Assembly (NCBI GenBank): GCA_019752335.1
Contig: JAIEMJ010000011.1
Span: 1 to 64,000, forward strand
Reading direction: 5' to 3'
DNA length: 64,000 nt
From: Bryobacteraceae bacterium
GTDB taxonomy: Bacteria; Acidobacteriota; Terriglobia; Bryobacterales; Bryobacteraceae
A model generated the notes under the pieces. The model had not been told where the DNA came from. It did no database searches and worked only from the letters and a program-made list of their open reading frames with translations. The position numbers and the translations under genes are program-made. Positions 6,500 through 24,187 of the stretch are shown here, in pieces (position 1 is the first letter of the stretch; each line of letters begins with the position of its first letter).

Positions 6500-7161
6500 C
6501 TCCCTCGAAAAGCACTTGCCGCTTGGGGTGGATATCCGCCACGGGAATGCTGGGAATCGGGCTCTCCTACCTGATGGCCTACGTAGCGTGGCTCGCGTCC
6601 GGGGCGAATCCCGCCAGTCCCATCGGCGACCCGTTTCTGGCGGTGATGGAAGCGCTGACCCTCGTTTCCGCGCCGCTGTTCGTAGCGATGATCGCGGCGA
6701 TCCATCAGGTAGCCGCAGAAGACAAGAAGGTGTTTGGTGTAATCGCCCTGGCCTTCGCCACAGCCGGGGCGGCCATCACCATGAGCGTCCACTTCGTGCA
6801 ACTGACGGCGGTTCGCCAACTGGGCGGCGACGGCACGTTGCGTTGGCCAGGAATCGCCTATGCGCTGGACCAACTCGCCTGGGACCTTCTCTTCGGCGGA
6901 TCCTTGATCGCCGCCGCCTGCACATTTGGCGAGGATCGTTTCGCGCGGCTCATGCGCGGTTCGCTGCTGGTCACGGGTTCCCTCTGTTGGCTGGGAGGGT
7001 TGGGGCCGGTGCTCGGCGACATGCGCATTCAGCGTATGGGGATCTTGGGCTACGCGGTGGTCCTCCCGGCGGTGTGCCGGTTGTTGGCCGTCTATTTTCG
7101 CCGTTTAGGGCCGGGTGCAGCCCTCAATGCGCAGGGCAAAGCTGCCACGGGAGAAGGGTGA
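6496..7161 (+). CDS. Polytopic membrane protein of unknown function
   Basis: A 221-residue protein with about six or seven hydrophobic segments and no catalytic motif I recognise. It starts in an ATGA overlap with the DUF6544 gene and is the last gene of the nitroreductase/DUF6544/membrane trio. Its 3' end overlaps the 3' end of the convergent S8 protease gene by 57 bases, so its last 18 codons are antisense to the protease C-terminus. The final hydrophilic tail (about residues 198-221) lies mostly in that overlap and may be a recent extension. Confidence 0.6.
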   Translation: MTPSKSTCRLGWISATGMLGIGLSYLMAYVAWLASGANPASPIGDPFLAVMEALTLVSAPLFVAMIAAIHQVAAEDKKVFGVIALAFATAGAAITMSVHFVQLTAVRQLGGDGTLRWPGIAYALDQLAWDLLFGGSLIAAACTFGEDRFARLMRGSLLVTGSLCWLGGLGPVLGDMRIQRMGILGYAVVLPAVCRLLAVYFRRLGPGAALNAQGKAATGEG

Positions 7162-9978: not shown

Positions 9979-10013
9979 TAACTCCTGGAGAGAGCACCTC
10001 TCACAGGAGTTAT
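9978..10013. promoter_or_regulatory. Hairpin covering the S8 protease ribosome-binding site
   Basis: Arms ATAACTCCTG (9978-9987) and CAGGAGTTAT (10004-10013) are perfect complements. The inner GAGAG/CTCTC extends the stem to about 15 bp, with one bulged A and a 5-base loop. On the minus strand the AGGAG Shine-Dalgarno and the TTG start lie in one arm. It also sits just after the desaturase stop, so it could serve as a processing or attenuation signal; there is no U-run. Confidence 0.55.
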
Positions 10014-10034
10014 CGGCAATTTCGCGGCGCCTCG

Positions 10035-10916
10035 TTAGGCGGCTTCGCGTTCTTCGAGCAGACGCGAATCGGTCTTGGCGACTTTCACCATCTTGGCGAC
10101 GCCCAGGGCTTGCAGCATCCGGATCTGCAGCCAGGTGATGTCAAGTTCGTACCAGGCTAAGCCGTGCCGGGCCGAAGCCGGGTGGGCGTGGTGGTTGTTG
10201 TGCCAGCCTTCGCCGAAGGTGAGCAGGGCGACCCACCAGTTGTTGCGGGAGTCGTCGGTCGTCTTAAAGCGCTTCGATCCCCACATATGGGTGGCGGAGT
10301 TCACCAGCCAAGTGGAGTGCAGGCCTAAGGTGACCCGCAAGAAAGTGGCCCAGGTCACCATCGACATTGCGCTATACCAGCCGCCGTAGGAGTATCCCCA
10401 GACACCGAGAGCCACGCCGACCACCGTGAGGGGCAGCCAGTGCCAAGTATTCAGCCAGCGATAAAAGCCGTCCGCGTAGAGGTCCGGGGCCATGCGGCCT
10501 AAGGCTTCCGTCTTATTGTGATGACCGGCGCCGGTGATGATCCAGCCCATGTGCGACCACCAGGCACCGTCGCGGGGGGAGTGCGGGTCCCCGTCCTTGT
10601 CGCTCTTGGCGTGATGAACGCGGTGGGTGGCCACCCAGAAAATGGGTCCGCCTTCGAGCGCCAATGAGCCGCAAACGCCGAGGAAGTACTCACCCAGCTT
10701 GGGGATCTTGTATCCCCGATGCGTGTGGAGGCGATGATAGCCCATCCCGATCCCGCAGCTTATGGCCAACCAATACAGGAAGGCGGCGACGGCCACGGAG
10801 CGCCATTCAAAGAAAAAAGGCGCCGCCAAGGCGCCCGCGTGGAAGATGATCAGGGCAACGGTGGTGATCCAATTGATGGGCCGTTGGTCGTGGATGGTGG
10901 TAATGGTAGCTGGCAT
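10035..10916 (-). CDS. Acyl-CoA / fatty acid desaturase
   Basis: A membrane di-iron desaturase of the delta-9 acyl-CoA type, introducing a double bond in acyl chains. All three histidine boxes are present: [18 protein letters not shown] and HNNHHAHP, with hydrophobic segment pairs between them. With ATG 10916 the protein is 293 residues, normal for the bacterial group; a TTG six codons upstream (10934) is an alternative. It lies downstream of the DUF6702 gene on the same strand with a gap of about 70 bp, and may share a transcript with it and the M1 peptidase. Membrane-fluidity adjustment is the expected role. Confidence 0.9.
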
Positions 10917-10985
10917 GTATAAGATCGAATCCAATCTCAGAGTACTGGATCCCAGGCGTTTTGAATGTAATAGTTGTGTAATAGC

Positions 10986-11471
10986 TCAAGGCTTCAGCAA
11001 GGGCTGCTTTACCCCGCCGGCCGCCGCGTTGAACTGCAATTCACGCAACGGATTGCCGTCGCGCTTCACTTGGGCGCTGTTGGTTTGGTCGGGCACGCGG
11101 TCGAGCAGTAGGCGGTTCTCGAGGGTGACGCCTGGCAGGCCATCCGGCAATGCGACTTCAAAATAGGCGGTGAGGAAATGCACCTTCACCTCCATGCCGA
11201 CCCAATGCTGTTTGAGGACCTCGCCGCGGGCGTTGCGTAGTTGAAAGTGCCCCTGCAAGTAATCGCGCACGAAGCGCTCGGCAGCTTTGGGCTCGTCAAA
11301 GTTCGCACGCGGACCGGCTTGCGCCTGGAAGGCGCGCTCGACGTCCTCGGTGTGCAGCCACAGCATCACCTCGACGGTCTTCCTGGCGGAGATGAAGTCC
11401 AACTGCGCGATCGAGGCGTGGTAGGTGTGGGCGCTGGCCAGGCAGGCCAACAGAAATGCCACGCCGCGCAT
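10986..11471 (-). CDS. DUF6702-like exported protein
   Basis: A 161-residue protein with a short signal peptide (MRGVAFLLACLASAHTYHAS). The opening after cleavage (SIAQLDF, then a beta-rich body and a YLQGHFQL segment) looks like the DUF6702 family, small exported proteins often encoded beside M1 peptidases. It starts 4 bases after the stop of the M1 peptidase gene, so the two are almost certainly co-transcribed. Function is unknown; periplasmic location is inferred from the signal peptide and the partner peptidase. Confidence 0.7.
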   Translation of the reverse strand: MRGVAFLLACLASAHTYHASIAQLDFISARKTVEVMLWLHTEDVERAFQAQAGPRANFDEPKAAERFVRDYLQGHFQLRNARGEVLKQHWVGMEVKVHFLTAYFEVALPDGLPGVTLENRLLLDRVPDQTNSAQVKRDGNPLRELQFNAAAGGVKQPLLKP

Positions 11472-11475
11472 CGCC

Positions 11476-13761
11476 TTAGGCCTTGGGCTTCTCTTGCATC
11501 GGGTTCGTGGGCTTCTTGTCCTTGAAGAGTTCGAACTGCCGCTTGAGCGGGCGGCGGGGGAAGTAGTTGTTCGTCAGGTCCGTGTCGGCCGTTTCGAGAT
11601 GGGGATCGAGCGTAATCTCTTTGATCTCTTTGGGCGTAATGATGAGCTTCGACACGGCCGAATTATTCCGCCGCCAGATTTCGACGGGGAGACGCAATTC
11701 GTCTTGCGTGCCATCGGTGTAACTGACTTGGAGAATGACGGGCATGACGAGGCCGCCCAGGTTCTTGAGGTCGAGTAAGTAAAAGTTCTCGCCGCCTTCG
11801 AGTAACTTGCGCTCTTCGGGCTCCAAACCGTCGAGGAACTTCTTGTATTCGTCACGGTCCTTACCAGTGACGGCGAATTCGTCGTAGCTATTGTAAAAGT
11901 CCTTCAATTCGGGCCGGGCGTCGAGTAACTTGGGCAGATTTTTATTGCGCTGCGCTGACAGAGTAACCGGCTCTTCCTCCTTCTTCTTCTTCGAAAACGG
12001 CTTTTCGGTGTCGGGATTCTTGGTGCCGAGGCGGAACATACGGAGGTTATCGAGCGAGAGGTCGGTGTGGTCGGTGGAGAAAAACCAGCCGCGCCAGAAC
12101 CAGTCGAGGTCGACGCCGGTGGCATCTTCCATGGTGCGGAAGAAATCGGCGGGGGTGGGGCGTTTGAACTTCCAGCGGCGGGAGAATTCGCGGAAGGCGA
12201 AGTCGAATTGTTCGCGGCCCAGGATGGTTTCGCGCATCATGTTCAGGCCGGTGGCCGTTTTCTGATAGGCATTGGCGAAGAGGTTCTGCACGGAGTCAGA
12301 ATTGGTCATGATGGAGTCGTGGGAGGGGCCGCTCATGTAGGCGACGATGTCTTTGGGCTCGGCGTCGCGGGAGGGGTAGTTATTCTCCCATTCCTGCTCC
12401 GACAAATACTGCAGGAAAGTATTCATACCTTCGTCCATCCAGGTCCACTGGCGTTCGTCGGAATTGACGATCATCGGGAAGAAGTTATGGCCCACTTCGT
12501 GGATGATGACGGTGATGAGACTGTATTTCGTGCGCGCGCTGTAAGTGCCGTCTTCGAGAGGGCGCGGACCGTTGAAGCAGATCATGGGATATTCCATGCC
12601 GCCGTTGACGACGCCATTCACCGAGATGGCGATGGGGTAGGGATAGGGGAAGCTATATTTTCCGTAGACGTTCAGCGTATGAATAATCGCAGGCGTGGAG
12701 TATTTTTCCCAAAGCGGATTGCTTTCCTTGGAGTAGTAAGACATGGCCATGACGCGGCGGCCATCGACTAAGTGGCCCTGGGCGTCCCAGATGAATTTGC
12801 GGGAGGAGGCGAAGGCGAAGTCGCGGACGTTTTCGGCGTGGAAGATCCAGGTCTTCTTACCCTTGGGCTTCGAACTCTCGGCTTGCTTGGCCTCCGCCGG
12901 GTTGACGATCATGACGGGGGCTTTAGCGGTTTCGGCTTCCTTCAGGCGCGCGAGCTGGGTGGCGGTGAGCACGTCACGCGGATTCTGCAGGACCCCGGTG
13001 GAGCCGACGATGTGGTCGTCAGGCGCGGTGATGCGGACCTTGTAGTCGCCGAATTCGAGCGTAAACTCGCCGGCGCCGAGGTATTGCTTGTGCTGCCAGC
13101 CGACGGCGTCGTAGTAAGCGGCCATGCGGGGAAACCATTGGGCGATGCAGTAGATCCAGTTGCCGTCTTTCGCGAAGAACTCGGCGCCGGTGCGTCCGCC
13201 GATTTTCTTCGAAGGGTTGATGTTGTACTCCCAGTCGATGCTGAAGTCGACGGAGGCGCCGGGAGGGAGTTCGCGGGGGAGGTCGACGCGCATCATGGTG
13301 TTCTGGATGACGTAGCGCAGGCCGTCGCCGCCGGCGTTCTTGACGGCTTTGATGCGGTAGCCGCCGTCGAAGGTGGGGAGAAACTTGAGGCGTTCGAGGG
13401 AATTGAAGGGCAGGTTGTTGAGGTCCGAGGTGGTTTGGGAGGCGGCGGTGAGCGAGTCCTTGGCCCAGATGTTCTGGTCGAGCTGCATCCAGAGGTAGGT
13501 GAGGGTGTCGGGGGAGTTGTTCTTGTAGGTGATCTTTTCGGATCCGGTGATGCGCTGGTTGACGTCGTCGAGTTCGACGGAGATGACGTAGTCGACCTTC
13601 TGCTGCCAGTAGCGATGGCCGGGGGCGCCGGAGGCGGTGCGGTACTCGTTGGGGGTGGGCAGGAGGGTGCCGAGTTGGCCGAAGCGGTCCTGGGAGCCGC
13701 GCTGGGTTTGGGCGGCGAGGGCGTGGGCGGCGACGAGGCAGAGCAAGAGGCGATGGGGCAT
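11476..13761 (-). CDS. M1-family aminopeptidase-like metallopeptidase, exported
   Basis: A 761-residue peptidase with a signal peptide (LLLCLVAAHALAAQ). The M1 N-terminal beta domain ends in the exopeptidase motif (GGMEYP, residues 388-393). The zinc site is intact: HEVGH at 421-425 and the third ligand Glu444 in TWMDEG, the usual 18-residue spacing. The C-terminal part (about 570-761) carries a Lys/Glu-rich insertion and a beta domain. It is longer than a minimal M1 enzyme but fits the Bacteroidetes/Acidobacteria secreted group. It probably processes peptides in the periplasm alongside the S8 protease. Direct repeats with TAGAAT-like elements lie just upstream. Confidence 0.9.
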   Translation of the reverse strand: MPHRLLLCLVAAHALAAQTQRGSQDRFGQLGTLLPTPNEYRTASGAPGHRYWQQKVDYVISVELDDVNQRITGSEKITYKNNSPDTLTYLWMQLDQNIWAKDSLTAASQTTSDLNNLPFNSLERLKFLPTFDGGYRIKAVKNAGGDGLRYVIQNTMMRVDLPRELPPGASVDFSIDWEYNINPSKKIGGRTGAEFFAKDGNWIYCIAQWFPRMAAYYDAVGWQHKQYLGAGEFTLEFGDYKVRITAPDDHIVGSTGVLQNPRDVLTATQLARLKEAETAKAPVMIVNPAEAKQAESSKPKGKKTWIFHAENVRDFAFASSRKFIWDAQGHLVDGRRVMAMSYYSKESNPLWEKYSTPAIIHTLNVYGKYSFPYPYPIAISVNGVVNGGMEYPMICFNGPRPLEDGTYSARTKYSLITVIIHEVGHNFFPMIVNSDERQWTWMDEGMNTFLQYLSEQEWENNYPSRDAEPKDIVAYMSGPSHDSIMTNSDSVQNLFANAYQKTATGLNMMRETILGREQFDFAFREFSRRWKFKRPTPADFFRTMEDATGVDLDWFWRGWFFSTDHTDLSLDNLRMFRLGTKNPDTEKPFSKKKKEEEPVTLSAQRNKNLPKLLDARPELKDFYNSYDEFAVTGKDRDEYKKFLDGLEPEERKLLEGGENFYLLDLKNLGGLVMPVILQVSYTDGTQDELRLPVEIWRRNNSAVSKLIITPKEIKEITLDPHLETADTDLTNNYFPRRPLKRQFELFKDKKPTNPMQEKPKA

Positions 13762-13779
13762 GATGGACCTTATCGTTTC

Positions 13780-13809
13780 ACGAAACGAACCGGAAACTGT
13801 TTGATTCTA
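13780..13809 (-). repeat. 30-bp direct repeat, copy A, with TAGAAT element
   Basis: On the minus strand this copy reads TAGAATCAAACAG then CCGGTTCGTTTCGT. It lies 19 bases before the M1 start codon. TAGAAT resembles a -10 box, so this may be the promoter of the peptidase operon. Copy B lies 134 bases upstream with about four differences. Confidence 0.45.
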
Positions 13810-13913
13810 AAAGACTGAACACACGGACAAGGGCCGCCTGCGAAGGGCGGGACAGCGATGGCTTGGCCTTTCTGGATCAGGATAGCAGATCTCTTTGTGG
13901 GCTGGCTCCCGGG

Positions 13914-13943
13914 ACGAAACGAACCGGCAAGTGGTTGATTCTA
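13914..13943 (-). repeat. 30-bp direct repeat, copy B, with TAGAAT element
   Basis: Second copy of the element near the M1 gene, keeping TAGAATCAA and CCGGTTCGTTTCGT on the minus strand. The retained blocks suggest a duplicated promoter or binding site rather than random similarity. Confidence 0.45.
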
Positions 13944-14171
13944 CGATCAGAAAGCGATTTTGAGTGGGCGGACCCGGTTTGGGGTGGTCTTCCGTTAATG
14001 AGGATAGCAGAAGGAAACAAGCGACCTGATGCAGATCGACGGATAGGGACAATGATTGCAACAGGTTACGGCGAGGAAATTCAGCGGGACTGGCCATCGC
14101 CGAGAACCACCCGGTCACTATCGTTCCCGGCTGGACTGGCGTGGCGGTTTAGTTAGGCGACGGACAGCAGA

Positions 14172-14186
14172 CGGACCCCGGGTCCG
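14172..14186 (-). terminator. Hairpin just downstream of the DMT exporter stop
   Basis: CGGACCC and GGGTCCG form a 7-bp GC-rich stem around one base, 3 bases beyond the exporter stop codon. There is no U-tract, so it is a weak terminator candidate, and the one-base centre would force a few pairs open. Confidence 0.35.
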
Positions 14187-14188
14187 CA

Positions 14189-15070
14189 TTACGTGCGAGT
14201 TCGCCGGATCGCGCCCCACAGCAACAGCACCACTCCCGACAGAATCACACCGCTGGCGGCCCATTCCCGTGGACTGAGGGTCTCGCCCGCGATCGTGGCG
14301 CCTAAGGCCAAACCCACCACGGGGTTGACCAGCGTGTAGCTGGAGGCGGTGCCGGGTCGGACGCGCGCTAGCAGGTACATGTAGGCGTTGAAGGCGATGA
14401 GCGAACCGAAGACGACGAGGTAAATCCAGGCTAGAGTCGCCGTGGTTTGCGGTGGCCACGCGAAATGCTCGCCCGCGAGGAGCGCGACGAGGGTCAGGCC
14501 GACTCCGCCGCAGAGCATCTGGCTCGCATAGCCCATGCTGCCGGGGGCCGGCCTTAGCCGGTGGCGGCTCAGCACGCTACCGAGCGACCAGCCTACCGCC
14601 GCCGTACACATCGCCCCCAGCGCCACCGGCGAGGCCACGAAGCCCTGGCCGCGCACCAACAGGAGCACCCCGGCGAACCCCACGGCGAGACCGGCGAGTT
14701 CGAAGGCGTCCGGTCGTACGCCGAACCAGAGGCTGAATAGGATCATCAGCATGGGCATCGTGCCGACGAAGACCACGGCGAGGCTGGAGGAGATGGTCTG
14801 TTCGGCGTAGGCCGTGCAGCCCATGCCGCCGACCATCATCAGCACGCTCACGATGGCGGCGTTGCGCCACTCGCTGCGCGAGGGCCAGGGAGATCCCTGC
14901 CGGCGGGACCATAGCAGCACGATCAGGCCGGCGACCAGGAAGCGGCTACCCATTTGGGAGAAGGGGGGAAAGCTGACCAGGGCGAACTTGATGGCGAGGT
15001 AAGTGGAGCCCCAGATGGTCCAGGTGGCCAGCAGGCACAAGCCGATCACTAGGCGGGAGGATCGTTCCAT
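14189..15070 (-). CDS. EamA-family (DMT superfamily) transporter
   Basis: A 293-residue inner-membrane protein with about ten hydrophobic helices arranged as two EamA repeats. WTIWGSTYLAIKFAL opens the first repeat, and the second ends in the proline-containing NPVVGLALGATIAGE pattern. Relatives (YedA/RhtA-like) export amino acids and metabolites; the substrate is not readable. The start ATG at 15070 lies inside the 3' end of a truncated toxin ORF, which suggests that the exporter's upstream flank is a junction. Confidence 0.85.
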   Translation of the reverse strand: MERSSRLVIGLCLLATWTIWGSTYLAIKFALVSFPPFSQMGSRFLVAGLIVLLWSRRQGSPWPSRSEWRNAAIVSVLMMVGGMGCTAYAEQTISSSLAVVFVGTMPMLMILFSLWFGVRPDAFELAGLAVGFAGVLLLVRGQGFVASPVALGAMCTAAVGWSLGSVLSRHRLRPAPGSMGYASQMLCGGVGLTLVALLAGEHFAWPPQTTATLAWIYLVVFGSLIAFNAYMYLLARVRPGTASSYTLVNPVVGLALGATIAGETLSPREWAASGVILSGVVLLLWGAIRRTRT

Positions 15071-15207
15071 AGTCCAGTGTACGTGGAGTGGGGCCTGATC
15101 GATTTCGCCACTGCGCGGTGGGATGCAGCGGGTCTTTCCTGGGCAATGAAGTCCTCACTCCCGTCAAGATCGTTAGACGCTTCCGCGTGGAGCGCGTAAA
15201 CGCTCAT
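15049..15207 (-). pseudogene. Truncated ParE/RelE-like toxin remnant
   Basis: A 52-codon ORF starting ATGA-overlapped with the antitoxin stop. Its first 25 residues (MSVYALHAEASNDLDGSEDF then IAQERPAA) follow the ParE-type N-terminus, where intact members usually read YALHPEA..DLDEIWEFIAQD. Intact toxins are about 95-105 residues with a C-terminal beta sheet. Here the homology is lost after about residue 36 and the ORF runs into the DMT exporter start, so the active part is missing. It is probably a dead half of a type II toxin-antitoxin module. Confidence 0.55.
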
Positions 15208-15446
15208 GCCGCGCCATTACGCCTGGCTTCAATGCGCTGGTGCAGGAAGGCGATGGCGGATTCGCCTTCGAGCGGACTTACCCGGCCACGCTTGAGGTCG
15301 TCGTAGCGGGAGTTGAGCATGGCTTGGGGAGCGGAGTATTCATCGACGCAACCGGCTACCGCATCCTTGACGAGTTCGGCGGCGGCGCGGCCACTTTCGC
15401 GGGCCATCTGCTCCAGCTTGGCTTGGATGACGGGTTCAAACTGCAC
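15204..15446 (-). CDS. Antitoxin-like small protein of a decayed type II TA module
   Basis: About 80 residues from GTG 15446; the frame stays open to GTG 15515. The start VQFEPVIQAKLEQMARESGR with AAELVKDAVAGC looks like the small MEVQF-type ParD/RHH-like antitoxins, and the tail RYDDLKRGRVSPLEGESAIA matches their usual ending. The GGAGG upstream is spaced too far (about 16 bases) for GTG 15446. An ATG in the neighbouring frame would give MEVQF if one base were restored, so a one-base deletion may have moved the start out of frame. Its stop overlaps the start of the truncated toxin (ATGA), which supports the TA reading. Confidence 0.6.
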   Translation of the reverse strand: MQFEPVIQAKLEQMARESGRAAAELVKDAVAGCVDEYSAPQAMLNSRYDDLKRGRVSPLEGESAIAFLHQRIEARRNGAA

Positions 15447-15606
15447 TTCATGACTTGTGGCTCCTCCCGAAATGGTTTCTCCGTTGAAGATAAGGGATAT
15501 CGGCGAGCTTGTCACGTGCCAGTTAGGCGAACTGCCGGCAAGATGTTCTTTCCAATGGGTTAAGCGATCGGTTGGGAATTCCGAGGGCTACAATTTCACC
15601 GCCGCG

Positions 15607-18600
15607 TCACGCCGTCTCGTCTGCTGGCAACACTCTTCGGGCATGACTAATCTTGAACCCATCCGGCACCGGTTTGAAGGGCTTAGCAGGCGAACGATGG
15701 CTGCTTTGGAATTGGCGCAACGCGTGGATGTCAATCTCGCCAATAACGCAGTAATCGGAGATTCCGCCTTTGACCCTCAAAACGTCGCGCTTCCAAAGGT
15801 CCTTGTACGGCGCGCGGATGCGGCTGTCGCCATATTCCCGATCATTGCACTGAATGACATAGGCGTGGACGTCCAAGGCCGTTGACTCGACCAGCACGTT
15901 AAATGTCTCGGTGTCCGGATTCCATTCCGGCACGAATAGCGCGTCTACTTGACCACGTAGCGCGGCTCGATATTCTATGTTCGTGAGTTCGCTACACACC
16001 AGCAAAGCAAAAAGGAATTCGCCGTGCTGGATGATGGGCGGGGTCTTCCATTTCTTGGCAGGCTCCAACTTCAGACCAGCCAGTCTTTGTAGCTCCTGCT
16101 CCTCGTGTAGCGCAGGGCGCTGCTTGTCTTGCCGGTGGATCATGTACGATGGGAAGCCTAACCCATTGTGGGACAGTGCCGCCCAAACTTGGTTTCGCAC
16201 GCGTCTCTTGCCGCCATGCAGGTACGCGATACCACTTATCAGCGAAATACCACGGCCCTGTAGTTTTCGGGCAATACGAATGAACCAATGTGCCGGCAAG
16301 GCCAGTTCGGGCAAGATCAGGTAATTAGTTGCGTGAGGGTCCTTGATTACTCCATCCAGCAGCCGGTTCATCCGGGCATAACGTCCGGTGTCTGGATCGG
16401 GCAAGCGAGTCACGGATGCGGTCCAACTATCGATGTGGGTCTTCCAACTCGATACCGCAATGATGTATCGGGGTCTCAATGCGCCATCAGGAATCCGCAG
16501 GATCCCATGCTGGTCAACAAGAGGCATCTTGTCGTTCAGCCTGAAGCCACGCAGCGCCATCACTACGGATGCCATATCTGCTTGGCCGCTCTCGCTAGTG
16601 GGCTCCTTGCCGATTACGTACAACTCGGGCAGGTTGAAAGGGCGCGTCGCAAAGAGCAGCCCATGCGGTATCTTCTTGAGCCCAATCCACCTGGCCAGCA
16701 ATGAGATGCCCTGGCAAACTGGCTCTGGGACTATCTGCTCTGCCTCGCTGAAAAACGTGACGGTCTTTCTGGCTGGAATACCGCGCTGGGTTACCATCTC
16801 AGCGGGCAAACCAATGAAGCGGAAAGGCATATGGGCCAGATCAAACGAGAACAGCCGTTCCTGTGCCGCCTTGAATTCCTTAGCGGACGAGGGCCATGAT
16901 GCGGGTAGTTCACCGGAAATTGCAAGACCGGGGCCTGCGATATGTTCCTGCCATGCTCGCTTACCAGATCTGGATAGACGGGGGGGAAACGACGCCATGA
17001 TGCTTTCATAGATGGCCCTGAAGAGTTGTTTCTCCCAGCGCGCAAGGATGCCGCTGGATTCGGGCGGAGGTTCCGCCTCAGGCCATGCCTTAATGCTAAC
17101 GGTGCAGTCGTTTCTTACTTTGGCGCAGAGCAGCTTCAGCGAATCGATGATTTTGCGCAAGTCGTGGTAGTCCTCGCACGCCGTTGCTAGCTGTATCACT
17201 CGTGGCAGATAGTTGGCCAATTCGAAGAAATCCGGCAGAACAAGAACGTGCTGGGTGAAGGCTCGAAAGAACGTATGCCGATGGTCCTTCCAGGCATCAG
17301 GAGTCAAGTCGCGCTCATATGCTTCAAAGTCGCGAAGCTTTATGGCAAAGGCGGCACGACGCATGGTCAGGGCATCTGCTTTACGCAGGTTGTCGACTGC
17401 CTCGCCGTCAGTTTGGGTTGCCGCTAGCAAGTCGGTACCAATGTGGCTTGCGGAATGAGGTAGCTGCGGCATCCCTCGCCATTCGCTGGCACTCTCGTGG
17501 ACTTGACGGGCGATAGAATCGACTAGAGCTTGACCAGTTTCGCCGGCCAGGAGAAACACCTTGGTCTTTGCATTCGCGAAAATAATGTGGCTCGCGCTCT
17601 TGCCTTCCTTAAGGTAGTCTGGTTGAAAGCAGATCCTCTTTTTCTCCTCGCCATCGACCCAGTTGAGTTTCCCACCGGAGCGCGCGAACACCCATTCCCA
17701 GAGCTGGCTTGCCGACTGGAAATCCGCTCCATTTTCCATGACCAGCAGTATGTCATCCACGTAGCGGCCATAGTAAAGCGGGACGATTTGCTGTTCAACC
17801 AGTCGATCTAGTTCGATCAACGCCATGTTGGCGACGACCGCTGACGCGGGCAGCCCTACAGGCAAACCTTTTTTCAGGGGAGTATTCATCGACCATGATT
17901 CTAAGGCGCGGATGAACAAGCGGTTGAGTTTCTGTTGCGCTTCAGTAAGATCGAGCGACAGCACGTCCTGAAGAAATGCAGCGTCGAGCATGAAGCCTGG
18001 GTTGAGTTCGTGGTAGAACGATCGAACATCCGCCGTCAGGGCGACGACTTTCTTGCCTGCGGCTAAGGCAACTCGCATTGCGTCGATGCCTCGGTCGCGC
18101 CAATTCTTAAAGGGTCTCAGGTATGGGGCGAACGAGCCCATCGAATAGGGATTGATGTCCTTCCGGTCCTTAGTCCGGCGGAGCCGATTGCCGTAGGCAC
18201 ACTTTTTCAGCTTGGAGTCGTAAAGATGACCGACCTTTAGTATCCACAGTGCGGACAGCACGTGAAAATCAAGACTGCAATTGGCCATGACACGGAACTC
18301 AGCCGTAGGCTTTTTCGAAGCATCCACGCCCGTCAACGTGCAGGCGTGGTTCCATTTGTCCGCAGGCGACGAGAAGATCAGGCCACTGCTGCCCGCCTCC
18401 TTTCCCGTTACTTCGCTCGGCAAAGAGATGGATTTCGTGCCATATGTCCAGCCATCGACAAGAGCCGGCGACTCAACCCATGTCTCGTCGATTCCGTTTA
18501 GCTTTACCAGCAAGTCTGTCAAGTTAACGTACAAGCGGCTCTCGTAATCCGCAATCGCAAGGAGTGATGCATTGGACGAGTAATAAAGATCGACTTTCGC

Positions 18601-18642
18601 TTTTCGATAGGCTAGCCCCAAATCCTCGATGGTGAAGGACAT
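15607..18642 (-). CDS. Defence-associated reverse transcriptase fused to a nitrilase domain (UG/DRT type 1-like)
   Basis: A 1011-residue fusion. The RT domain occupies roughly 100-360: motif A ALTADVRSFYHEL with Asp205, motif B GLPVGLPAS (259-267) and the catalytic YVDD box (294-297). A helical middle region follows. The C-terminal third is a carbon-nitrogen hydrolase fold with a plausible Glu779 (LPELALP), Lys840 (DKQRPALHEE) and Cys883 (LLVCSELTN) triad. RT-nitrilase fusions are known among the UG/DRT antiphage RTs (UG1 is DRT type 1; UG5 and UG8 relatives also carry nitrilase domains); the exact class needs a phylogeny. The known type 1 system has a small membrane partner, and none is visible here. 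Base composition looks less GC-rich than the neighbours, and a decayed TA pair lies downstream. ATG 18642 follows an AT-rich leader. Confidence 0.85.
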   Translation of the reverse strand: MSFTIEDLGLAYRKAKVDLYYSSNASLLAIADYESRLYVNLTDLLVKLNGIDETWVESPALVDGWTYGTKSISLPSEVTGKEAGSSGLIFSSPADKWNHACTLTGVDASKKPTAEFRVMANCSLDFHVLSALWILKVGHLYDSKLKKCAYGNRLRRTKDRKDINPYSMGSFAPYLRPFKNWRDRGIDAMRVALAAGKKVVALTADVRSFYHELNPGFMLDAAFLQDVLSLDLTEAQQKLNRLFIRALESWSMNTPLKKGLPVGLPASAVVANMALIELDRLVEQQIVPLYYGRYVDDILLVMENGADFQSASQLWEWVFARSGGKLNWVDGEEKKRICFQPDYLKEGKSASHIIFANAKTKVFLLAGETGQALVDSIARQVHESASEWRGMPQLPHSASHIGTDLLAATQTDGEAVDNLRKADALTMRRAAFAIKLRDFEAYERDLTPDAWKDHRHTFFRAFTQHVLVLPDFFELANYLPRVIQLATACEDYHDLRKIIDSLKLLCAKVRNDCTVSIKAWPEAEPPPESSGILARWEKQLFRAIYESIMASFPPRLSRSGKRAWQEHIAGPGLAISGELPASWPSSAKEFKAAQERLFSFDLAHMPFRFIGLPAEMVTQRGIPARKTVTFFSEAEQIVPEPVCQGISLLARWIGLKKIPHGLLFATRPFNLPELYVIGKEPTSESGQADMASVVMALRGFRLNDKMPLVDQHGILRIPDGALRPRYIIAVSSWKTHIDSWTASVTRLPDPDTGRYARMNRLLDGVIKDPHATNYLILPELALPAHWFIRIARKLQGRGISLISGIAYLHGGKRRVRNQVWAALSHNGLGFPSYMIHRQDKQRPALHEEQELQRLAGLKLEPAKKWKTPPIIQHGEFLFALLVCSELTNIEYRAALRGQVDALFVPEWNPDTETFNVLVESTALDVHAYVIQCNDREYGDSRIRAPYKDLWKRDVLRVKGGISDYCVIGEIDIHALRQFQSSHRSPAKPFKPVPDGFKISHARRVLPADETA

Positions 18643-19058
18643 AAATATTTTTCCATTCGATCTTTAATGCGGCGACCCTTTCAGTATATTCAATTGCCTT
18701 TCGCTTTTCGTGATAGACACTGCGAAGTTACGGATAAACAGGGGAGAAACGGCTGTTATGAAGCTTCTATACCCTCGAAAGCGTCTTCTCTTAACCACAG
18801 ATGAGGGTATTCGGCAAAGCTCATGACTGAATGGTCAATCACCCCTTTCCCGTCAGGGCCCGCCACGCGACAACTATGGTTGCTCATTTGCTGTGGATCG
18901 ACGCCAAGTTACACTGCCAGCCTCGCGAAGCCTGGTTTGGTCTAAAGTCGACGGTGCCAGTCGCTTCTGCGCGTCTTCTGCGCTTGACTCGAAGTGCTCG
19001 ACCAGACCGATGCGTCCACTACTCGAGGCGCAAGGGCGGGCGGTATACTTGGGGGATT
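18643..19058. other. Intergenic region between the divergent RT-nitrilase and cpaF genes
   Basis: 416 bp without a supported gene. The RT-proximal part is AT-rich. On the minus strand it holds a TATACT -10-like box (18683-18688) about 40 bases before the RT start, without a good -35. It also holds an inverted repeat at 18769-18810. The cpaF reading frame stays open back to 18831, but those codons do not resemble the family. Confidence 0.5.
18769..18810. repeat. Inverted repeat ATACCCTC/GAGGGTAT in the RT leader region
   Basis: Perfect 8-bp arms at 18769-18776 and 18803-18810 with a 26-base loop. Several DRT systems need an RNA encoded next to the RT, so this is a candidate structured RNA element. 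A chance inverted repeat is also possible. Confidence 0.35.
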
Positions 19059-20501
19059 ATGGGTACCCCCCCTTTTCGGCCGATTGGTTCGCGTTCTCCG
19101 ATGTCGCCGGTGTCCCGGCCGGGAGGGATGTCTGCGCCGGGGAATCGTCCACCGGTGGCCGCTAAGCCGGGTCCGGGTGGGCGGAGGCCGACTTCGGCGC
19201 CGCCGACGTCGGCTCGGCCGACGGACCGTTACTTCGAGCTCAAGAGCGAAATTCACCGCAAGCTGATTGGCGTGCTGAACCTGGACAAGGTCTCGTCGCT
19301 GCCGAAGGACCGGGTGCGGGCGGAGATTGGGCGGGTGGTCGAGAAGCTACTCGATGATGAGCGCGTGCCGATGACGGCGCAGGAGGAGAACCGGATCGTC
19401 GAGGAGGTGCTCGATGAGGTGCTGGGTTTGGGTCCGCTGGAGACGTTGCTCAAAGAGCCTTCCATCTCGGACATCCTGGTGAACGGGCCGCACAAGGTCT
19501 TTATCGAGCGGGCGGGCAAACTCACCCTGACCGGCGTGCGCTTTAAGGACAACGCGCATCTGCTGCACATTATCGAGAAGATCGTGTCGCAGGTGGGGCG
19601 CCGGGTGGACGAAGCGAATCCTCTCGTGGACGCGCGTTTGCTGGATGGCTCGCGCGTGAATGCGATCATTCCGCCGCTGGCTTTGGATGGCCCGGCGCTG
19701 TCGATCCGGCGCTTCGGGCGGCACGTGATCACGTCAGACGAGATGGTGGCGAACAAGACGATCATGCCGACGATGCTGCGCTTTCTGGCGGCTTGCGTCG
19801 CCTCGAAGAGCACGATTCTGATTTCCGGCGGCACGGGCTCCGGCAAGACCACCACCTTGAATGCGCTTTCGCGCTTTATCCCCGAGGAAGAGCGCATTGT
19901 GACGATTGAAGACACGGCCGAGTTGCAACTGCAGCAGCGGCACGTGGTGAAGTTCGAAACGCGTCCGCCGACGCTGAATAAAGAGGGCGGCGTGAATCAG
20001 CGCGTGCTGGTGCGGACCGCGCTACGCATGCGGCCGGACCGGATTGTGATTGGCGAGTGCCGCGGCGCCGAGGCGCTGGACATGCTGCAGGCGATGAATA
20101 CGGGCGTGGAGGGCTCGATGACGACGATCCACGCGAACACGCCGCGCGACGCTTTTTCGCGCCTGGAAGCGATGATGCTGATGGCCGACCTGGACATTCC
20201 GAGCAAGGTGCTGCTCCAGCAACTGGCGAGCGCGATTCGCCTGGTGGTGCAGGTGTCGCGTTTATCGGACGGGTCGCGCAAGATTTTGAATATCGCCGAG
20301 GTGACGGGTGTGGAACAGGGCCGGGTGATGACGCAGGACATCTTCTTTTTCGAGCGGACCGGGGTCCGGGATGACGGCAAAGTGCAAGGCCGTTTCCGCT
20401 GGACGGGCATACAGCCGAAGATGCTGGAGCGTTTCCGCATTATGGGCATTTCACTTCCCGACGGCGTCTTTGACGAAGTGATGGAAGTGAACATGGATTA
20501 G
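19059..20501 (+). CDS. CpaF/TadA-type secretion or pilus ATPase
   Basis: A 480-residue type II/IV secretion ATPase. A proline/serine-rich disordered leader (about residues 1-50) precedes the CpaF N-terminal helical domain and the RecA-like core, with Walker A GGTGSGKTTTL near residue 254, Walker B region PDRIVIGECRG and MTTIHANTPRDAFSRLE. It hexamerises and powers Flp/Tad pilus assembly in known systems. ATG 19059 is preferred because a GGGGG Shine-Dalgarno precedes it and the longer upstream frame has no family similarity. No other tad or flp genes lie in the window, so it is an orphan here. Confidence 0.9.
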   Translation: MGTPPFRPIGSRSPMSPVSRPGGMSAPGNRPPVAAKPGPGGRRPTSAPPTSARPTDRYFELKSEIHRKLIGVLNLDKVSSLPKDRVRAEIGRVVEKLLDDERVPMTAQEENRIVEEVLDEVLGLGPLETLLKEPSISDILVNGPHKVFIERAGKLTLTGVRFKDNAHLLHIIEKIVSQVGRRVDEANPLVDARLLDGSRVNAIIPPLALDGPALSIRRFGRHVITSDEMVANKTIMPTMLRFLAACVASKSTILISGGTGSGKTTTLNALSRFIPEEERIVTIEDTAELQLQQRHVVKFETRPPTLNKEGGVNQRVLVRTALRMRPDRIVIGECRGAEALDMLQAMNTGVEGSMTTIHANTPRDAFSRLEAMMLMADLDIPSKVLLQQLASAIRLVVQVSRLSDGSRKILNIAEVTGVEQGRVMTQDIFFFERTGVRDDGKVQGRFRWTGIQPKMLERFRIMGISLPDGVFDEVMEVNMD

Positions 20502-20713
20502 TGCGGTGACCGGTTGCTCCCGCAGGACCCCCCTCGCTGCGCTCGGGGCTGGTGGGCGCATCATGCGCGAGGGTGTCGTGAAAGTTTCACCGCTACTTGT
20601 GGCCCCGCAGGGCCAACGGGGCTCTCCATGAACCACCTTGTAGACCATTGATTCTGAACGACCCCTCACCGTTCGGGGCTGCTTGGCACGCATAATTCAG
20701 GGTGGCTGTTGTA

Positions 20714-20760
20714 CCCCATGACGCCTCAAGGCATGCGGGACTGCGTTATCTTTCATGGGG
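20714..20760 (-). terminator. Inverted repeat after the ADOP permease gene
   Basis: CCCCATGA (20714-20721) and TCATGGGG (20753-20760) are perfect 8-bp arms around a 31-base loop, 7 bases past the permease stop. The 20502-20766 gap contains further GC-rich partial palindromes (for example GCGCAT/ATGCGC) but no gene. It may mark transcript ends from both sides. Confidence 0.35.
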
Positions 20761-20766
20761 ACCGCG

Positions 20767-23139
20767 CTACCGCAGCAACTGCTGCGGGTCAGCGCGGCCG
20801 GCGCGGTAGGCGGGCCACCAGGAGGCGGCTAGGGCGATGGCTGGTACTAGCGTGAGCACGACGGCGTAGCTCAGCGGGTCAAACGGCGCGACTTCGAAGA
20901 GCCAACTGGCGAGCCAGCGTTGGGCCACCCAGGCCAGGAAGACGCCGAGCGCGAGACCCAGTACGAGCCAGCGGCCCGTACCTTGCAAAACCAATCGCGT
21001 GACTCCGCCACTGGTCGCGCCCAGGGCCAGGCGAAGGCCGAACTCCGGTAGACGGCGCTCCACCAGATAGGCCGTGACGCTGTAAACGCCGGCGAGAGCG
21101 ACCAGCAGGGCCGCGGCGGCGAAGAGCAGGAAGAGGCGCGTGCGGAGGAGTTCCGCGCTGACTGAGTCATTGACGCTTTCACGGAAGGATTCAAAGCGCG
21201 TCGCTACCAACGGCTCGAGCTTCGCGCTGACGGCGCGCACGGTGGCGATCAGGCTGGTGGGTGGCACGCTCGACCGAATCACCACCTGTTGCTCGTTGGC
21301 GAAAACGGGGTGCTGGGCGAGCGGCATGTAGAGTTCGGGCGCGGGGGGCGTGGCGGGAGAGTCACTGCGGACGTCGCCGACGATGCCCACGATGCGCATC
21401 CAGACGTTACGGTCCAGCCCGCATTTGAGGCGCTGGCCCAGCGAGTCCTGCCCGGCGAAGCTTTGCCGCGCCAGTGACTCGCTGATGATGGCGACGGGTT
21501 CCGCCGCGAACTGGTCGGCGAAGGTGAAGTCGCGGCCTTGGCGCAGAGGGATGCCGAGGGCGGCAAAGTAGCCGGGTTGTGCGAGGCGGAAGCCGGCTTG
21601 CGCGAGACCGGTGACGCCGGGGACGAAGTCGTTCTTGCCTTCCACGGCATAGGCGCCGTTTGAGCCATACTGGCCGGCGGGGAGTCCCATGGCGGCGGAG
21701 ACGGCGGTGACGCCGGGCAGGGCGGCGAGGCTCGCGTAGAGGCGTTCGGTGCGGCGTTGCACGGCTTGGAGTTCGGCGTCGGACTTGGCGGGGACATGGG
21801 CGTACATGATGAGGACGGAGTCCGGCTGGTAGCCGAGTTCGGCGCGATTCAGTTGCAGGAGGCTGCGGCCCAGCAGCGCGGCGGAGATACTCAGCCCGAC
21901 TGACAGTGCGATCTGCGCGACGACCAGTGCGGCCCGGAAGCCGCCAGTCTGCGCGCCGATCAGTCCACGCAGTCCGCCTTGTTGCAAGCCGCGGCTAACA
22001 TCCACTTGGCTGGCGCGCCAAGCGGGCAGCAGTCCGGCGAGCAACGCCGATACGAGCGAGACGGTGGCGGAAAAGGCGAAGATGCGCCAATCCACTTGGA
22101 CCTCCTCCCAACGCGGCAAAGCGTTGGCGGCGAGGCGCGACATCGCCTGTACGCCAAACTGCGCACCCACGAAGGCGACGGCGGCGGCGGCGAGCCCGAT
22201 CACCGTGCATTCGGTGAGCAGTTGGCGCATCAGTTGGGCGCGGCTGGCGCCGACCGCCGTCCGCACGGCGAACTCCGCGGCCCGGGCGCCAGCGCGGGCC
22301 AGCAGCAGGTTCGCGACGTTGGCGCAGGCGATGAGCAACACGAGTCCTACGGCGCCCAGCAGCAGCCACAGCATGGTGCCCGCGCGGCCCACCATTTGCG
22401 CCTGCAAGGGTGTGACGTAGAAGCTCTTGTCGCGATTCTCCGGAATGGCGGCGGCAAGCCGGGCGCCCAGGGCGGTGAGTTCGGCTTGCGCCTGGGCGAG
22501 CGAGACTCCCGGGCGCAGCTTGGCCACCAGGCGATAGTTGTAAGCGTTGCGATTCGGCTGGCCTTGCACCTTCGCCTGCGAGAGCCACACGTTGGCCGTG
22601 GCCGGGTAGCCGCGCGCCACCACGCCGCTGATCTCGTAGACTTGGTTCTCCACCGTCACGGTGCGCCCCACGGCTTTCTCGAAGCCGCCAAAGTGACGCT
22701 GGGCGAAGCCCTCTGAAACCACGGCGACCGGAGTCTTCTCGTCGGCGCCAAACCAGCGCCCCGCCAAGGGAGCCAGCGTGAAGACGCGTCCGTATTCGCC
22801 GCGCACCAGGGAGACGCCCGTGAATTCGGCTTGCCCGCCCACTTGCACGCCGATGGTGCCGCCGCCCGGCATGGCCCAGGCTTCCAGCGACGTGGTGGAC
22901 TTCTCGATGTCGAGCCAGTCACCGCCGGTGAGGCGCGGATGATCGCGGCCCTCCTTCACGAAGCGGGTGCCGACGGAGACGAGGCGGTCGGCGTCTGGGA
23001 AGCGCAGCGGACGCAGGAGTACGCCGTCCACCACGCTGAAGACCGTGGTACTAAGGCCAATGCCGAGGGCCAGCGTCAGGACGCAGATGGTGAAAAAGGC
23101 GGGGCTTTTGGCGAGTTGGCGAAAGGCTTGGCGGAACAT
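20767..23139 (-). CDS. ADOP-type ABC transporter permease (MacB/FtsX double module)
   Basis: A 790-residue member of the acidobacterial duplicated orphan permeases. The N-terminus (FRQLAKSPAFFTICVLTLAL) is the first membrane helix. A MacB-type periplasmic domain follows, then an FtsX triplet of helices, a second periplasmic domain and a second FtsX triplet ending at the C-terminus. ADOP genes characteristically lack a neighbouring ATPase, as here. ATG 23139 matches the usual start of the family; the frame continues to a TTG at 23205 that would add 22 poorly matching residues. The substrate is unknown; relatives move lipoproteins, peptides or toxins. Confidence 0.88.
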   Translation of the reverse strand: MFRQAFRQLAKSPAFFTICVLTLALGIGLSTTVFSVVDGVLLRPLRFPDADRLVSVGTRFVKEGRDHPRLTGGDWLDIEKSTTSLEAWAMPGGGTIGVQVGGQAEFTGVSLVRGEYGRVFTLAPLAGRWFGADEKTPVAVVSEGFAQRHFGGFEKAVGRTVTVENQVYEISGVVARGYPATANVWLSQAKVQGQPNRNAYNYRLVAKLRPGVSLAQAQAELTALGARLAAAIPENRDKSFYVTPLQAQMVGRAGTMLWLLLGAVGLVLLIACANVANLLLARAGARAAEFAVRTAVGASRAQLMRQLLTECTVIGLAAAAVAFVGAQFGVQAMSRLAANALPRWEEVQVDWRIFAFSATVSLVSALLAGLLPAWRASQVDVSRGLQQGGLRGLIGAQTGGFRAALVVAQIALSVGLSISAALLGRSLLQLNRAELGYQPDSVLIMYAHVPAKSDAELQAVQRRTERLYASLAALPGVTAVSAAMGLPAGQYGSNGAYAVEGKNDFVPGVTGLAQAGFRLAQPGYFAALGIPLRQGRDFTFADQFAAEPVAIISESLARQSFAGQDSLGQRLKCGLDRNVWMRIVGIVGDVRSDSPATPPAPELYMPLAQHPVFANEQQVVIRSSVPPTSLIATVRAVSAKLEPLVATRFESFRESVNDSVSAELLRTRLFLLFAAAALLVALAGVYSVTAYLVERRLPEFGLRLALGATSGGVTRLVLQGTGRWLVLGLALGVFLAWVAQRWLASWLFEVAPFDPLSYAVVLTLVPAIALAASWWPAYRAGRADPQQLLR

Positions 23140-23236
23140 TCCCCGTCTGATAGGCACGTCGAGGGCCACTGTTTTTGTGAGGATTTCAAGCTGACGGCGA
23201 AGCAAGGCTGTCCGCTTGTGGGACAGCGTTGTCCAG

Positions 23237-24187
23237 TTACGCCCAGGGGCGGACTAGGCAGGCGACGCCGCCGGCGGCCATCAGTTCGCGGCTTTGGGCG
23301 ACCACTTCGAGGCGAGCACCCGTGCGCTCCGCCAACAGCGCGGCCTCTTCGCGGGCTTCGGATTCGAGGGCGCCGGCGGAGAGCAGCACGCGGCTGGCCG
23401 CCCCTTGTTGCAGGGTGGACCGGACGTCGGCCCACCCGGCGCGGGCCAGCCGCCGGTCCGTTAATTGACGAGGGAGCAAGCGGGCCACGGCTTGGTCCTC
23501 AGCTTCCTCGAAGGTTAAGAAGCGGCGGATGGCGCGGGGCAGAATGCCTTCCTCGTCGCCCACCTCGTCAATCAACGTGTCGAGAGCATCCTCGGTGAGG
23601 ATGGCCTCAAACGCATCCGTCTGTTCACGGGAAGCGGCCAGCATCCAGCGCCGCGCCGGATCCTCGGCTCGCAACTTGTCGAGCGCCCGGGCGGCCTTGC
23701 GTAGCAGCGGGAGGCCGGAGCCTTGGTAAATGCGTTTGCGCGTCACGCCGCCGAGTTCGACAACGGAGACCGTGGCCCCGTTGGTCTGCAGTTCGACCAA
23801 AACGAAGCGGTCGTAGTTGTCGCGCAGTTCGGTGAGTGAGTAAATGGCCGGGCCGACGCGCAGGCTGACGGCCATCTCGACCGGAGCGCTCAGCGGGAGA
23901 GCGCAAAACATGGGGGAGGAGCCGGCGCGGGCAAAAAGGGCCAACCCGCCGTCGGGCTGCGGCGGGTTGGCCTTGTGGTAGTTCATCACGACACTAAACG
24001 CTTCATCCGAAGCGGCTTTCGCGGCCTTGGGCATCTGGGTCCGGGCCGCGTAGTAGTGCAGGTTCAGGCCGTACAACTGGGCGGCCGGAGCGATGCGCGA
24101 ATCCACGTAGGCGCTCAACACCGGCGAGCCGCCACTCGCCAAAGTCGCCAGGCGACGGAGGCATTCGTTCATTTCGGAGAGATGCAT
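23237..24187 (-). CDS. baeRF-family protein (bacterial eRF1-like)
   Basis: A 316-residue protein resembling the bacterial archaeo-eukaryotic release factor family, relatives of eRF1/Vms1 thought to act on ribosomes or peptidyl-tRNA. The visible pattern is a starting SAYVDSR strand, a central strand RFVLVELQTNGATVSVVELG, and the C-terminal baeRF-like end RVLLSAGALES through LAERTGARLEVV to a GGVACLVRPW tail. No classic GGQ loop stands out, as in many baeRF proteins. It lies between the ADOP permease and the SBBP genes on the same strand. ATG 24187 is taken over the TTG at 24196. Confidence 0.6.
   Translation of the reverse strand: MHLSEMNECLRRLATLASGGSPVLSAYVDSRIAPAAQLYGLNLHYYAARTQMPKAAKAASDEAFSVVMNYHKANPPQPDGGLALFARAGSSPMFCALPLSAPVEMAVSLRVGPAIYSLTELRDNYDRFVLVELQTNGATVSVVELGGVTRKRIYQGSGLPLLRKAARALDKLRAEDPARRWMLAASREQTDAFEAILTEDALDTLIDEVGDEEGILPRAIRRFLTFEEAEDQAVARLLPRQLTDRRLARAGWADVRSTLQQGAASRVLLSAGALESEAREEAALLAERTGARLEVVAQSRELMAAGGVACLVRPWA

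Follow-up and report, generated by a model that had tools for sequence, protein, structure and literature searches.

The window analysed here is a stretch of 64,000 nucleotides from a Bryobacteraceae bacterium (assembly GCA_019752335.1, contig JAIEMJ010000011.1), and its subject is a minus-strand gene at 15607-18642 for a reverse transcriptase (RT) joined to a nitrilase-like domain; the protein is called P0001. The original prediction, made from the sequence, had placed an RT-nitrilase fusion there and the open reading frame (ORF) is real: it runs unbroken from an ATG at 18642 to a stop codon ending at 15607, with zero internal stops, and codes for 1011 amino acids (aa). The features of the gene are listed below; 78/78 denotes invariance in an alignment of 78 proteins, which consists of P0001-P0003 and 75 others with identities to P0001 down to 30%.

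15607-18642, minus strand: gene for a UG5-nitrilase defence-associated reverse transcriptase (P0001), 1011 aa; intact ORF, matched by PADLOC RT_UG5-nitrilase
17548-18294, minus strand: reverse transcriptase part, residues ~117-365; RVT_1 match and invariant columns R117 to F363, boundaries estimated from the model
17752-17763, minus strand: YVDD catalytic motif, residues 294-297; each residue 78/78
17485-17487, minus strand: S386, candidate priming serine in motif SExR; 78/78, role suggested by DRT1 S402
16483-17544, minus strand: mostly alpha-helical middle region, residues ~367-720; AlphaFold2 secondary structure
15652-16482, minus strand: predicted nitrilase/amidase-fold domain, residues 721-997; VIA-align to aliphatic amidase and profile match to DRT1 (9YFD)
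16306-16308, minus strand: E779, putative nitrilase active site; 78/78, aligned to E of the DRT1 SEL segment
16123-16125, minus strand: K840, putative nitrilase active site; 78/78, aligned to K of DRT1 QGK
16102-16104, minus strand: E847, probable fourth nitrilase active-site residue; 78/78, aligned to E of DRT1 GEM
15994-15996, minus strand: C883, putative nitrilase nucleophile; 78/78, aligned to DRT1 C1116
15655-15675, minus strand: C-terminal lid motif KxxPxGF, residues 990-996; aligned to DRT1 K1219-F1225

The family was assigned with PADLOC, whose RT_UG5-nitrilase profile (PDLC03780) matched residues 2-1009 of P0001 over profile positions 20-903 of 907 (E = 0, 1012 bits). The remaining RT-nitrilase profiles, the Drt1a models among them, covered the protein in part only, and the best stretch of the RT_UG5_small match (E = 1.3e-26) was limited to residues 121-312; the RT part is akin to that of the UG5-small proteins, from which P0001 differs in possessing a nitrilase domain. 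Nothing rose above the model cut-offs in a scan against NCBIfam (best Drt3a, 42.9 versus 200 bits). P0001 shares with the UG5-nitrilase family its length, domain order, YVDD motif, nitrilase residues, RT phylogeny and a full-length profile match, and nothing sets it apart; it is solitary, and its genome holds two divergent copies. The second intact copy (L002, 1417-4491; L190, 7747-10821) is 31-33% identical to P0001 and adjoins a phosphoenolpyruvate carboxylase gene. The family to which P0001 belongs has a name but has been little studied, and its proteins are suspected of phage defence; P0001 itself is well preserved and looks ordinary for UG5-nitrilase. The presence of a C-terminal nitrilase in RT classes UG1 and UG5 was already stated in 2021 (PMC8934634).

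Relatives were sought in one genome per species (84,980 genomes), with entry by two short peptide patterns; this led to 149 confirmed matches, the best 80 of which (79 distinct loci) were used, so that the counts given for relatives lean toward closer homologues. Among these best 80 of 149 the closest are up to 70% identical to P0001 over the full length (Burkholderia), and relatives come from Proteobacteria, Actinobacteria, Verrucomicrobia-type bacteria and others. In all, 81 loci were extracted (79 genome, 2 viral). L081, L083, L087, L095, L121 and L129, which have cut or broken frames, were excluded from the 78-row alignment; 43 of 45 viral loci were left unaligned, and L141 and L142 were used only in the tree and for reading motifs by eye. 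Full-length matches occurred in P0001's own genome only among 61 related genomes searched, and in one further genome of a phylum-wide sample of 396; the distribution of UG5-nitrilase is sporadic. A 30%-identical full-length relative on an Escherichia coli plasmid (L194, NZ_CP146678, 8965-12174) adjoins an AbiEi/AbiEii pair.

RVT_1 was the sole Pfam match of P0001 (residues 171-327, E = 1.6e-9, 38.2 bits versus a cut-off of 29.6). The YVDD centre that had been noticed earlier was found at residues 294-297, and it is shared by every aligned protein. On the RT side of the predicted model Foldseek returned UG15, DRT9, DRT6, DRT4, AbiK, AbiA and DRT2 structures, the same listing also mixing in G2L4, DGR, retron, R2 and LINE-1. 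An RT-only tree was computed from 32 RT domains cut around YxDD, a panel with few UG classes. Its labels were taken from PADLOC and NCBIfam where scanned (L003, 'group II', was scanned against PADLOC only), 'DGRlike' and 'Drt4like' are working labels, the RT of L184 is truncated, and L189 was omitted because its motif was unmatched. P0001 falls within UG5-nitrilase, which is sister to UG1 (support for UG1+UG5, 0.982); UG5 itself is supported at 0.684 with the divergent L141 and L142 and at 0.805 without them. The five UG1 RTs, all confirmed as Drt1a, form a clade of their own at 1.0 with P0001 outside it, and support is low at the deeper nodes, one of which has 0.25. On this panel the RT therefore lies inside the UG/Abi assemblage, the placement on which the original prediction had made its case depend; of the three classes that it had considered, UG5 stood, whereas UG1 and UG8 did not.

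No nitrilase was found in the Pfam scan of P0001 up to E = 1. The AlphaFold2 model, for which the alignment was reduced to 60 rows at 85% identity, has a mean predicted local distance difference test score (pLDDT) of 89.3 and a predicted template modelling score of 0.91, and VIA-align superposed its residues 721-997 on aliphatic amidase with a Z of 23.8 (240 aligned residues, 3.0 Å). The top amidase and nitrilase rows of the structure search are tied, and therefore give no indication of the substrate. The likeness to the aliphatic amidase, formamidase and Nit2 branches of the nitrilase superfamily lies in the fold of this domain; P0001 differs from them in its fusion to an RT and in an identity of 10-18% in the structural rows. 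Each member of the Glu-Lys-Cys triad proposed earlier (779, 840 and 883) is invariant in the alignment, and E847, which was absent from that triad, is equally conserved and probably completes the set. Sequence, predicted fold and phylogeny agree in pointing to a defence-associated RT-nitrilase that has kept both active sites, as had been suggested.

P0001 was further compared with DRT1 (PDB 9YFD). According to PMC13275509, DRT1 uses its own S402 as the site on which it synthesises DNA without a template, and this DNA addition both assembles a tetrameric nitrilase and silences it via the C-terminal lid; infection is thought to release the nitrilase, with abortive infection as the outcome. Defence by DRT1, which protects as a single gene, needs D324/D325, C1116, S402 and the lid, and the lid mutants K1219A and A1223F lose it (PMC13275509). 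According to the same paper, template-free synthesis of protein-linked DNA is also seen in vitro with DRT5S and DRT5L, two further class 3 proteins.

The UG5-nitrilase family profile matched DRT1 with E = 1.2e-21 for the whole sequence, parts of both domains being aligned. In this alignment E, K, E and C1116 of DRT1 stand opposite E779, K840, E847 and C883, and its tail K1219-T-Q-P-A-G-F stands opposite K990-P-V-P-D-G-F. The lid residues K990, P993 and G995, opposite K1219, P1222 and G1224, are each invariant (78/78). By eye, the lid motif is also present in L141, reads KxPPAG in three of four DRT1-like proteins and ends as KYPPAN in L185; L142 is broken ahead of the lid position. S386 is the sole serine invariant in 78/78 and belongs to an equally invariant S386-E387-x-R389. 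It is predicted to lie in a low-confidence loop (mean pLDDT 63, residues 381-390) directly after a helix (367-384), 89 residues beyond the second YVDD aspartate compared with 77 for S402 of DRT1; the divergent L141 and L142 have a serine at this position, with the glutamate absent (by eye). By analogy with DRT1, S386 is perhaps the priming residue, as a prediction only. P0001 resembles DRT1 in having an RT with a C-terminal nitrilase, aligned Cys, Lys and two Glu, a lid and a single gene; it differs in being shorter (1011 versus 1229 aa), in lying outside the UG1 clade, in being matched only partly by the Drt1a models, and in the priming residue, since S402 has no stated equivalent elsewhere and S386 is proposed for P0001. 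As far as sequence and model allow, P0001 appears to keep every DRT1 element testable here, bar an identified primer.

We therefore favour, with a probability of roughly 0.6, the reading that P0001 is a stand-alone class 3 defence-associated RT of the UG5-nitrilase family which works most likely in the manner of DRT1. Established here are an intact gene, both sets of active-site residues, a predicted fold, the lid motif, the family and an insertion difference from a congener (described below). By analogy with DRT1, the RT part would add deoxynucleoside triphosphates, with no RNA template, to a serine of its own, perhaps S386, and the resulting short DNA adduct would drive the assembly of an oligomer of nitrilase domains, in which the KxxPxGF tail of a neighbouring subunit would cover the nitrilase pocket, so that the enzyme is assembled and held off. 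Some activity of phage replication may then free the pocket of its lid, upon which the Cys-Lys-Glu hydrolase would attack an essential metabolite and the infected cell would stop (abortive infection).

Several points weigh against this reading. S402 of DRT1 is stated in PMC13275509 to be non-conserved in other class 3 DRTs; because of this S386 is an analogue by position only and may instead have a structural role. The structure-search rows listed (library to April 2026) did not include 9YFD, an absence which is itself uninformative, and the comparison with DRT1 was accordingly made at the level of sequence. DRT5L is presumably a UG5-large protein, going by the names. We found no experiment in the literature, phage or structural, on UG5-nitrilase under that name. 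Finally, a PADLOC scan of 20 genes around the two copies recognised no defence system next to P0001, and a search of its genome with one BrxC model of BREX gave no match. The PADLOC scan gave four family matches, all partial and to shared domains; they comprise a subtilase model, which hit the protease at window 7105-9978, and the SspH and mad8 models, which hit an FtsK-type translocase close to the second copy, and none of them is read as a defence system.

The surroundings of the relatives led us to consider another role for the same enzyme. Profiles for BREX and type I restriction-modification (RM) genes were seeded from four annotated loci (L064, L065, L066 and L069), so that divergent systems may escape, and flanks of at most 8 kb, often shorter, were scanned. 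At least two BREX genes lie near the RT in 24 of 79 loci as a raw count; two or more type I RM genes do so in 11/79, and no seeded gene was matched in 35/79, some of which are short-flanked. In 20/79 loci PglX is split and the RT gene is flanked on the same strand by its N-half and its C-half, in some cases alongside other cargo (L066, L069, L070, L071, L074, L076, L084, L086, L088, L096, L100, L103, L106, L107, L109, L114, L116, L120, L124 and L131). Among the 56 loci whose flanks reach at least 7 kb on each side, the counts were 21 for BREX, 17 for split PglX and 8 for RM. Most of the split-PglX loci have further BREX genes, and several carry cargo of the HEC-02, HEC-05 and PDC-S02 families. 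Mapped on an intact PglX of 1176 aa, the alignment of the N-half stops at residues 544-603 in 20/20 and that of the C-half begins at 581-605 in 17/19 (the two others are fragmented and start later); no C-half was called in L106, which is near a contig end. By position only, the cut roughly coincides with the boundary between the 'upper' (1-660) and 'lower' (661-1205) jaws into which E. coli BrxX is divided in PMC11842806. In the RM loci, an HsdS match is the last match upstream of the RT in 10 of 11.

These loci suggest that UG5-nitrilase is coupled to modification-based immunity. Anticodon nucleases act as a back-up in some RM operons. The main job of the family might similarly be to back up BREX or type I RM and to fire when modification or restriction is blocked, the window copy having escaped or being independent. 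We regard this as possible though clearly less probable than a stand-alone, DRT1-like function. The BREX, split-PglX and HsdS counts speak for it, as does the scatter of split contexts over several separate branches when the family tree is read by eye, whereas the 35 relatives without any match speak against it, as do the window copy and the second copy, neither of which has BREX or RM neighbours, in a genome without a BrxC match. Moreover, defence genes share islands without joint function, and one split PglX was seen without an RT. Four plasmid records with close PglX-N relatives were examined: PglX is unsplit, with no RT, in those of Sphingobium (AP027317) and Methylomonas (AP019778), on a Hymenobacter plasmid its annotation is spread over three ORFs that have no intervening RT, and the fourth record is unannotated. 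The two plasmid-borne RT-nitrilase loci examined (Sinorhizobium and E. coli) have no annotated BREX or RM genes.

A more specific and equally tentative version would make UG5-nitrilase a guard module, in which an RT-nitrilase inside a PglX split into its methylating and its recognising half (at about residue 600 of 1176) or behind hsdS would respond to loss or blocking of the recognition subunit by nitrilase suicide, and of which the window copy would be a portable form. No report of an RT inside a split PglX was found in the literature by titles and abstract starts, supplements and most subscription papers being outside reach, and the main text of a 2026 survey of BREX diversity contains none of 'reverse transcriptase', 'reverse', 'nitrilase' or 'split' (PMC12839542). 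Of the leads, the one of most interest is that relatives repeatedly have the gene nested in split PglX; it does not extend to the window copy, since the scanned neighbours of P0001 are not BREX and the location in a BREX operon holds only for relatives. This repeated home in a split BREX methyltransferase would make the reason for the fusion of RTs and nitrilases in defence more directly testable; the lid motif by which DRT1 is regulated is retained throughout the 78 UG5-nitrilase proteins, and S386, C883 and K990 are offered as testable sites.

For P0001 itself, the gene neighbours are a RelB-like ORF, an EamA-type exporter and a TadA/CpaF-type ATPase. A blastn comparison of window 8001-24000 with L211, the single same-genus genome compared, delimited the following feature:

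13720-19041, no strand: segment absent from L211

In L211 the aligned portions of the peptidase and ATPase genes are separated by 99 bases, compared with ~5.3 kb in the window. The segment contains the EamA exporter, the RelB-like ORF and the RT-nitrilase. The RT-nitrilase gene was more likely gained, together with its small neighbours or stepwise, the alternative being a loss in the congener. GC content is 0.52-0.56 across the RT-nitrilase gene and 0.56-0.69 in its surroundings. Another reading takes P0001 for a chance passenger, either decayed or with no role in defence. This would agree with the finding that no defence system was recognised next to it in the window, and we consider it improbable in view of the intact 1011-aa frame with all family-invariant residues, the absence of the segment from the congener and the second intact copy in the same genome.

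A dependence on a flanking RNA was also considered. Window 14000-20000 gave no match in Rfam up to E = 0.1, a search which covers described families, so that a class 2 DRT dependent on non-coding RNA is without Rfam support there. In 19 of 72 loci no more than 20 nt separate the RT gene from same-strand ORFs of 100 aa or longer both upstream and downstream, and in 32/72 this holds for the upstream side; such tight packing leaves little room for a dedicated RNA gene, and a flanking RNA seems not to be required for UG5-nitrilase. An RNA-templated enzyme of the DRT2/DRT9 kind using a nearby non-coding RNA, to which the RT core of P0001 also bears a resemblance, is the least probable of the explanations, given the Rfam result, the packing and the position of UG5 as sister to UG1, whose product is untemplated.

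The original prediction had also taken the missing small membrane-protein partner as a sign of a variant architecture. No gene of this kind stands out beside P0001, whose own neighbours were checked by family matches only, and in 2 of 81 loci a same-strand ORF of 60-220 aa directly next to the RT gene had a membrane-like segment (L119, 102 aa, and L127, 215 aa, both downstream of the RT); ORFs were called from 60 aa up, and 7/81 loci had no called neighbour on one or both sides. Since no membrane partner was seen to recur beside the relatives and DRT1 works as one gene, the claim of a new architecture was rejected.

Some minor observations were made around the gene. The RelB-like ORF (15204-15515, minus strand, 103 aa) was matched with E = 0.0014 and 18.8 bits versus a cut-off of 50, and no toxin was recognised beside it. 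Two direct repeats of 30 nt each, 90% identical (13780-13809 and 13914-13943), lie near the start of the segment 13720-19041. The true start of the CpaF/TadA-type ORF at 18831-20501 is probably near 19060, because its first ~60 codons (18831-19041) are unmatched in the congener.

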